Source: Pseudanabaena sp.
GTDB taxonomy: Bacteria > Cyanobacteriota > Cyanobacteriia > Pseudanabaenales > Pseudanabaenaceae
Length of the DNA: 57,188 bases
Assembly (NCBI GenBank): GCA_003249035.1
Contig: QBMK01000025.1
Span: 1 to 57,188 of the forward strand
Direction of reading: 5' to 3'
Each line of letters opens with the position of its first letter. Within the stretch, counting starts at the first letter, position 1. The notes under the pieces are model-generated. The model did no database searches and was not told the DNA's origin. It saw only the letters and a list, made by a program, of their open reading frames with translations. Shown here piece by piece: positions 15,912 to 17,263 of this stretch. A program made the translations under genes and the position numbers.

Positions 15912-16769
15912 ATGGGAAGCATTGCATATTTGGATTGTCCGACAGGAATTGCGGGTGATATGTGTCTAGGCGCATTGGTGAGTGCAGGTGTGCCGTTAGA
16001 GTATTTGCAAGAGGTTGTTCATAAATTAGAACTGGATCGCGAAGTTAAGTTATGGACAGAATCAGTTCATCGTGGCGGCATCGAAGCCATAAAAATGCAT
16101 GTCGAATTGCTAAATCATAGCGGTGACAATCCACCCACAGTTGCGTCTGAACATTCGCATTCTCATGCTGAGCATGTTCATTCCCATAGCCTTGAAGAAC
16201 ATACTCATGATCATTCCCATAAAGCACATTCCCATCCAAACCATCGCCACTTACCTGATATTGAGAAGATAATTCGTAATGCAAAATTACCGATACAAGT
16301 TGAAGCTTGGAGCTTAGCAACGTTTAAAGAATTAGCGATCGCCGAAGGAGCCGTACATGGCATTGTGCCAGAGGCAGTACATTTTCATGAAGTTGGTGCG
16401 ATCGATGCGATCGTCGATATTGTCTGCACCTGTGCAGGATTTGTTTGGCTGGAAGTTGAGAAAATCTATTGTTCGGCTTTACCTGCGGGCGGAGGCTATG
16501 TCGATTGCGATCACGGTAAGATGCCAGTACCGGCACCAGCTACATTGAAGTTATGGGAAATGCATGGCGTGACTACATTTGATAACGGGATTAGGAAGGA
16601 ATTAGTAACTCCCACTGGAGCCGCGATCGCAGTCACCCTCTGTGAAAAGTTTGGCGAAGTTCCATTAATGAAGATCAAAAAAGTGGGACTAGGTGCAGGT
16701 ACGCAGGAATTAGAAATTCCTAATGCTTTGCGTCTATGGATTGGTAAGAGCAAGAAAAAAAAAGACTAG
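15912..16769 (+). CDS. larC: LarC, N-terminal part (0 frame)
   Basis: LarC (pyridinium-3,5-bisthiocarboxylic acid mononucleotide nickel chelatase) inserts nickel into the pincer cofactor of lactate racemase-type enzymes, using CTP. This 285-residue frame holds the N-terminal domain: it opens YLDCPTGIAGDMCLGALV, has a His-rich insertion around residues 78-113, probably for nickel, and contains VHFHEVGAIDAIVDIV and ELVTPTGAAIA. It ends KSKKKKD at TAG 16767 just after a run of nine A. The rest of LarC continues without a stop in the -1 frame, so this is one gene in two frames. Confidence 0.92.
   Translation: MGSIAYLDCPTGIAGDMCLGALVSAGVPLEYLQEVVHKLELDREVKLWTESVHRGGIEAIKMHVELLNHSGDNPPTVASEHSHSHAEHVHSHSLEEHTHDHSHKAHSHPNHRHLPDIEKIIRNAKLPIQVEAWSLATFKELAIAEGAVHGIVPEAVHFHEVGAIDAIVDIVCTCAGFVWLEVEKIYCSALPAGGGYVDCDHGKMPVPAPATLKLWEMHGVTTFDNGIRKELVTPTGAAIAVTLCEKFGEVPLMKIKKVGLGAGTQELEIPNALRLWIGKSKKKKD
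16755..16764 (+). promoter_or_regulatory. Candidate -1 frameshift (slippery) site in larC
   Basis: In the 0 frame the codons are AAG AAA AAA AAA GAC TAG. The in-frame heptamer A AAA AAA at 16757-16763 allows tandem slippage back by one base. The -1 frame is then open from 16763 to the LarC C-terminus at 17263. LarC of Lactobacillus plantarum is known to be made by a programmed frameshift joining LarC1 and LarC2. Confidence 0.65.
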
Positions 16770-17263
16770 ATCTAGGCAATATTTTTTCACTTGGGAACGA
16801 ACATTGTCTAGATAGTGGAACGATCGGCGAAACAGTTGTGATCCTAGAAACTCAAGTCGATGACATGACCGCACAGGCGATTGCTTACACGACGGAAGAA
16901 CTATTGAGCCAAGGAGCTCTTGATGTCTACACACAAGCGATCGGCATGAAGAAATCCCGCACTGGGATATTAATTACTGTAATTTGTCCTTGCGATCGTC
17001 AAACCATTTGTGAGCAAATCCTCTTTCGGGAAACTAGCACTCTCGGTATTAGGTATCGTTTTCAAGAGCGCAAAATTCTCTTTCGAGAAATTCGTGAAGT
17101 AGAAACAGAATATGGAAAGGCGAGAGTAAAGATTGCGCGGCGGGATGGATTCTGTACGATTCAGCCAGAATATGAGGACTGTGCAAGATTGGCGCGATTG
17201 AATGATATTCCATTAATGCAAGTACAATCTGCCGTTAATCTAGCAGCACAATCACTGAAGTAA
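16763..17263 (+). CDS. larC: LarC, C-terminal part (-1 frame)
   Basis: About 166 residues in the -1 frame relative to the upstream LarC part. It is open from the A run through RLDLGN..., then gives the conserved C-terminal domain: VILETQVDDMTAQAIAYTTE, GALDVYTQAIGMKKSRTGILI and LFRETSTLGIRYR. The fused product would be about 450 residues, normal for LarC given the His-rich insertion. The only internal start candidate before the conserved block is GTG 16838, with no clear ribosome-binding site, so independent translation is less likely than frameshifting. A sequencing error or real disruption in the A run is the alternative. Confidence 0.88.
   Translation, partial: RLDLGNIFSLGNEHCLDSGTIGETVVILETQVDDMTAQAIAYTTEELLSQGALDVYTQAIGMKKSRTGILITVICPCDRQTICEQILFRETSTLGIRYRFQERKILFREIREVETEYGKARVKIARRDGFCTIQPEYEDCARLARLNDIPLMQVQSAVNLAAQSLK

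Follow-up and report, generated by a model that had tools for sequence, protein, structure and literature searches.

Expression of the larC gene of a Pseudanabaena sp. genome (GCA_003249035.1; 4.55 Mb in 60 contigs) very probably involves programmed recoding at nine consecutive adenines, which would yield both LarC1 (285 aa) and full LarC (450 aa). The gene lies in the window, by which we mean the whole 57,188-nucleotide stretch of contig QBMK01000025.1 that was analysed. In the proposed mechanism, standard reading would end at a TAG after 285 residues to give LarC1. In some events the reading frame would move by one base inside the A run: the ribosome would slip -1 on A_AAA_AAA, aided in this genus by a downstream stem-loop, or RNA polymerase would add one A to the message, or both machines would act. 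Translation would then continue through the C-terminal domain, and the resulting 450-residue LarC would insert nickel into the nickel-pincer nucleotide (NPN). The sequences themselves show the frame break, its conservation, the constant A run, coding constraint on both halves, and the hairpin; that slippage occurs, how ribosome and polymerase would share it, and that the cell benefits from both proteins are inferences. The features of the locus are as follows.

15912..16769, + strand: larC N-terminal ORF (LarC1, 285 aa, TAG included); TIGR00299 211.6 bits, PF01969 positions 1-246
16152..16250, + strand: His-rich stretch, LarC1 residues 81-113, read from the translation
16748..16769, + strand: frameshift box, from the last -1-frame stop (16745-16747) to the end of the 0-frame stop; 22-base overlap
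16755..16763, + strand: A9 run, proposed slip site, containing 0-frame A_AAA_AAA; kept in 25/25 larC-bearing genus members
16763..17263, + strand: -1-frame continuation, predicted linker plus LarC2 domain, 166 aa post-shift; NF052512 145.8 bits, 6bwo/12bi matches
16766..16818, + strand: predicted 3' stem-loop, main 11-bp stem 16770-16780 with 16803-16813; MFE -16.4 kcal/mol
16767..16769, + strand: 0-frame stop TAG, from the sequence

In the ORF reading of the window, larC consists of an N-part (15912-16769) and a C-part (16763-17263) in a -1 relation. The A run at their junction is exactly nine long, within the 0-frame codons AAG AAA AAA AAA GAC TAG, and the TAG begins three bases past it, in keeping with a preliminary description of this DNA that placed a stop just after an A9 run. 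Because the -1 frame opens only at 16748, seven bases before the run, the shift must fall within the 22-base box that holds A9. The -1 frame then stays open to 17263, and the match of the C-part to the LarC2 model bears out the earlier statement that it runs through the LarC C-terminal domain. The N-part matches the LarC1 model and the C-part the LarC2 model, each above its curated cut-off, placing the gene in the LarC family (PF01969). The predicted fusion comes to 284 + 166 = 450 residues, the length first proposed. The best LarC1 and LarC2 stretches cover residues 84-254 and 264-412, respectively, of the solved 414-residue LarC 12bi_D, which places the junction in the linker between the domains. 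The 0-frame A_AAA_AAA within the run has the X_XXY_YYZ form of -1 ribosomal frameshift sites. Separately, the His-rich stretch of LarC1 is perhaps nickel binding.

The break is deeply conserved. We found larC in 37 of 38 family genomes, and the -1 break was kept in all 25 larC-bearing Pseudanabaena genomes, with A9 in 21, A10 in four, and run codons that always read AAA AAA AAA. The 37 family junctions comprise 31 with A9/A10, two with A6G, one with A8, and three that are fused. Programmed frameshifting predicts that the break and a slip-prone sequence are kept together, as they are in the 33 family genomes with A9/A10 or A6G in -1. The preliminary description had proposed looking for a kept A run and frame break in relatives; both are present in 25/25 of the genus and 31/37 of the family, which supports its suggestion of a likely programmed frameshift rather than an error. 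One same-genus genome (G008, rated 99% complete) gave no larC match, alone among 26 genus members.

Other family genera with A9 and a -1 offset are represented by L027 (phase 2), L028, L030, L031, L097, and L100 (phase 1), so that A runs of at least nine occur in codon phases 0, 1, and 2 across the family. In L032 and L098, from family genus g8, CCA AAA AAG stands directly before the stop, and the heptamer A_AAA_AAG replaces A9. Of the 34 split family genomes, 33 have the C-part in -1. The sole +1 case, L099 (G035), is a draft genome with A8, whereas its genus mate L100 has A9 and -1; this reflects either a real length change or an assembly fault. In L102-L104, three genomes of one family genus, larC is fused and has no A run, so LarC1 alone is not needed everywhere. 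The closest named relatives are Pseudanabaena. The same site is found in 18 of 19 named-strain loci, although these 18 junctions are identical over 140 compared bases to others in the set and count as the same data, not as extra cases. The remaining named locus, L047, holds a C-part alone: Pseudanabaena biceps O153 (L047/L147) has, roughly 7 kb away from larC, another LarC C-domain that lacks an N-part and is preceded by DNA resembling a YoeB-type toxin gene. In a LarC tree of 69 rows, which omits L001 and L002 (both = L003), L101 (= L030), L033-L051, L053-L084, and rows lacking either part (L047, L096), the family forms one group (SH-aLRT 95) and the labels require at least seven changes.

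An A9 run as such is not rare. The two strands of the window together hold three, compared with 5.0 expected in shuffles, and those outside larC both fall in gaps between the longer listed ORFs. The larC loci of the 19 named relatives (107,282 bases) contain one other A9/T9. What is beyond chance is the presence of A9/A10 with a -1 offset at exactly the larC junction in all 25 larC-bearing genus members.

The run is also more constrained than its surroundings. When the 25 genus sequences were anchored at the run, there were 0 changes at its nine positions and 3-11 at each of 91 flanking positions, with the caveats that anchoring demanded a minimum of eight A's and that codon indels inflate the flank counts. 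Lysine codons elsewhere in these larC genes include 387 AAA and 213 AAG, but AAG occurs in no run codon. The A10 of L004 and L005 aligns as a changed base after the run, not as an inserted base. Differences by codon position were 119/97/773 in the N-part (20 of 24 comparisons, four being dropped for unequal length) and 478/374/1461 in the C-part (24 comparisons, no realignment). Third-position differences dominate with each half in its own frame, which indicates coding constraint on both sides of the break. In none of the 37 larC-bearing family genomes does an A run leave both parts in frame. That no indel in the run has brought any of the 34 split genomes into frame suggests that the cell may benefit from the short product or from a limit on the amount of the long one.

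Many genus members carry a predicted hairpin just 3' of the run. In the window, its main stem begins six bases after A9, with a z of -3.37 in one fold (2/200 shuffles as good) and -2.69 in another. A z of -3 or lower was obtained just 3' of the run in 14 of 25 genus members (15 with fewer shuffles), compared with 0 of 275 control windows at 11 other offsets, and several of these hairpins are nearly unbroken stems of about 24 bp. We measured covariation in two sets, entering L004 and L005 one A shorter to keep register. In all five genus members with a 71-base linker (set A2), paired changes occurred at 8 of 17 pairs, and the covariation score was 0.512 versus 0.205 in shuffles (none of 500 reached it), and sliding gave no more than 0.182. 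In six other close relatives (set A1), picked from the 25 for carrying the hairpin, paired changes occurred at 4 of 25 pairs. Selection on the hairpin is therefore likely from these alignments, although palindromes can also stay alike by copying between arms. Folding found no strong hairpin in L013-L019, L021, L026, and L029, nor in any of nine tested split rows from other genera, and the L032/L098 junctions likewise lack a strong one. Because 10 or 11 of the 25 genus members and every one of these nine other-genus rows have a weak hairpin or none, the hairpin is not required. The 3' structure typical of -1 ribosomal frameshifting is predicted in 14-15 of 25 genus members, weaker in the window, and missing in the rest and in the other genera tested.

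We considered whether these hairpins are mere dispersed repeats. The ATCGGGC palindrome of L009, L010, and L023 occurs in three of six genomes, once each, at larC, and this idea was rejected. An exception is L020, where the hairpin core is a dispersed GGGCGGCGC palindrome that has larC as one of its places in G020. Dispersed palindromes of the form GGGCGGCGCNNNGCGCCGCCC occupy 35 places in G029, 14 in G020, eight in G016, and two in G000. An antisense terminator, formed on the other strand by the hairpin followed by T9, was also considered; it would leave the frame break unexplained.

Both ribosomal and polymerase slippage may contribute. As a tentative and possible account, an A run of at least nine would serve polymerase slippage, a 3' hairpin that varies in sequence yet keeps its shape would add ribosomal -1 slippage in Pseudanabaena, the A_AAA_AAG of a sister genus would be ribosomal only, and free LarC1 would be wanted. 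The polymerase component fits a run whose length stays at nine or above in all three codon phases, which exceeds the ribosome's need; such a homopolymer (about nine or longer) is found in 31 of 37 family genomes, the split exceptions being L032/L098 (A6G) and L099 (A8). The ribosomal component fits the steady -1 direction, the heptamer, the A6G site, and the 3' hairpin. If this two-machine reading is true, recoding at a single orthologous site has passed between transcription and translation.

Each machine could also act alone. Ribosomal -1 slippage on A_AAA_AAA with the 3' stem-loop, the extra A's being historical or efficiency-raising, is possible, if somewhat doubtful, as the whole explanation. 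It would account for the uniform direction, for a heptamer in every split family row except the +1 L099, for A_AAA_AAG right before the stop in L032/L098, and for a position-specific hairpin with paired changes. However, the first two A's of a phase-0 run are unneeded by the ribosome, yet they are unchanged in 25 sequences, and some 10 of the 25 genus members, like every other genus tested, lack the hairpin. RNA-polymerase slippage alone would produce messages with nine, ten, or more A's, of which A10 messages would give full LarC and the hairpin would be incidental; we regard this as about equally possible, and likewise somewhat doubtful. In its favor, runs of at least nine occur in phases 0, 1, and 2 (L100 in phase 1, L027 in phase 2) where a -1 heptamer needs only seven, and the run excludes AAG though AAG is common elsewhere in these genes. 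According to passages of PMC5009743, runs of nine A's slip with high efficiency in vivo, and Thermus dnaX relies on one of this kind. However, the A_AAA_AAG of L032/L098 is too short for it. Moreover, passages of PMC3711429 describe polymerase-slippage families as often showing both directions among orthologues, unlike the nearly uniform -1 seen here. The hairpin also counts against polymerase acting alone because, lying 3' of the run, it is not yet RNA while the run is transcribed. A 5' hairpin as a stimulator of polymerase slippage was rejected, as folding upstream of the run showed none on average (mean z about 0).

Two explanations dispense with recoding. Under the first, LarC1 and LarC2 would be separate proteins, with LarC1 ending at TAG and LarC2 beginning at an internal start codon. 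The window has a C-frame GTG at 16838, and 20 of 34 family rows have a C-frame ATG, GTG, or TTG before a conserved C-domain motif, but 14 of 34 have no start before that motif, start positions are not shared, and the kept A run is left unexplained; we therefore disfavor a separate start as very unlikely. Sequencing error, a decaying pseudogene, or DNA-level phase variation is the least credible explanation: A9 runs are prone to error and mutation, and lactobacillus plasmid copies differ between A10 (split) and A11 (in frame), but it was rejected on conservation and coding constraint, error and decay being already contradicted. Against it stand the recurrence of this break in every one of the 25 larC-bearing genus members (including the single-contig assemblies G014 and G029), constraint on the C-part, the lack of any larC-bearing family genome in which an A run joins the two parts in frame, and the A10 alignment of L004/L005.

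Programmed recoding of this gene family has precedent. LarC1/LarC2 frameshifting is reportedly documented in Lactobacillus plantarum, and the parallel drawn in the preliminary description holds in sequence: on plasmids of L. plantarum Heal19 (L131) and L. paracasei W56 (L130), larC is split at TTC GAA AAA AAA AAC TAA (A10) with the C-part in -1. The two systems share the gene, junction, poly-A run, -1 offset, and a stop one codon past the run's codons. They differ in that the lactobacillus A10 is in codon phase 1 and the window's A9 in phase 0, and in that lactobacillus larC is in an operon with larA, larB, and larE, while the window genome lacks larA. The splits are probably of independent origin because most cyanobacterial larC genes examined are fused. 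Other lactobacillus copies are fused, L133 with A11 in frame and L132 without a run. The L. paracasei plasmid copies L130 and L133 have near-identical larC genes, split at A10 in one and in frame with A11 in the other, which is either strain variation or a sequencing difference.

The older name of PF01969/LarC is DUF111. In the main-text passages of Antonov et al. 2013 (PMC3711429), DUF111 is a new recoding cluster whose cassettes frameshift at up to 39% in E. coli. That cluster resembles the present case in protein family, two ORFs, fused homologues elsewhere, and reporter frameshifting, but those passages describe no hairpin or family-wide series, and the word Pseudanabaena is absent from the available text. 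The same source gives magnesium chelatase frameshifting of 10%, 40%, and 63% with 7, 9, and 11 A's. In passages of PMC5009743, Thermus thermophilus dnaX undergoes polymerase slippage at nine A/T; it shares with larC a homopolymer of nine and nearby stops in other frames, but its long product is in the genomic frame whereas that of larC needs a shift. The -1 frameshifting of E. coli dnaX and IS elements, as those passages present it, likewise combines an A-rich heptamer with a 3' stem-loop that follows within a few bases, and A_AAA_AAG is shared with L032/L098. The Pseudanabaena run, in contrast, never carries G, and its stem base is often 1-3 bases after the run rather than 5-9. A literature search by titles and abstract openings returned no cyanobacterial larC frameshift among the matches listed. 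Recoding of the LarC family is thus already known; that search turned up neither the Pseudanabaena case nor its depth or hairpin.

These results bear on cofactor synthesis and on annotation. Synechocystis PCC 6803 LarC completes NPN synthesis in the account of PMC11796402, which treats it as one gene and whose available text does not contain the word frameshift. The window genome has LarB and LarE, and a search of it gave no match to LarA, which most cyanobacteria lack according to the same account. CTP-dependent nickel insertion by the window LarC would be predicted from its family and the genomic LarB and LarE. Recoding would bear on NPN synthesis in cyanobacteria, most of them without LarA (PMC11796402), and on whether the LarC N-domain has its own job. 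The apparently broken gene would mark a recoding site conserved in a cyanobacterial family, and larC would best be annotated as one recoded gene. The junction variants of the family (A9, A10, A6G, A8, and fused, some with a hairpin and some without) also form a natural series, all at the same position, in which slippage by polymerase and by ribosome could be told apart.

Our survey of 290 genomes included 255 from outside the family, of which 25 with odd matches were examined closely and the other 230 were assessed by genome table only. Most genomes outside the family are in frame by this survey. Two have A9 with -1: G290 (GAA AAA AAA ACA) and G234 (AAA AAA AAA GAC TGA). The gene appears broken at the N/C junction without an A run of at least seven in G068 (-1), G252 (+1), and G260 (-1). 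The family of G234 (63 genomes, 58 with a match, G188, G297, and G300 being left unclassified in the break count) includes a further -1 break without a run in G310, and in the three G234 genus mates that were read larC is fused with no run. In the genomes surveyed, larC breaks outside the family are therefore rare, and the four apparent ones without an A run (L086, L088, L148, L158) outnumber the two with A9. Such breaks speak against the simple idea that A-run recoding arose again and again. The gene is in frame across the junction in 11 loci that were read (L089-L095, L127, L153, L160, L161), and the match table gives one unbroken match across it in G044, G061, G117, G216, and G270. Contigs end at the junction in four followed genomes, leaving the N- and C-parts on separate contigs or one of them absent: the draft contigs of G133 and G188 end within or near the larC linker, and G218 and G064 show an N- or C-part only. 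The -1 break of L148 (G260), at the linker, lies beside a repeat of ATCCCTC-like units. In other cyanobacteria (L089-L093), in-frame larC genes have long interdomain linkers, with 196-589 bases between matched parts in a scan that reads short where the N and C matches overlap.
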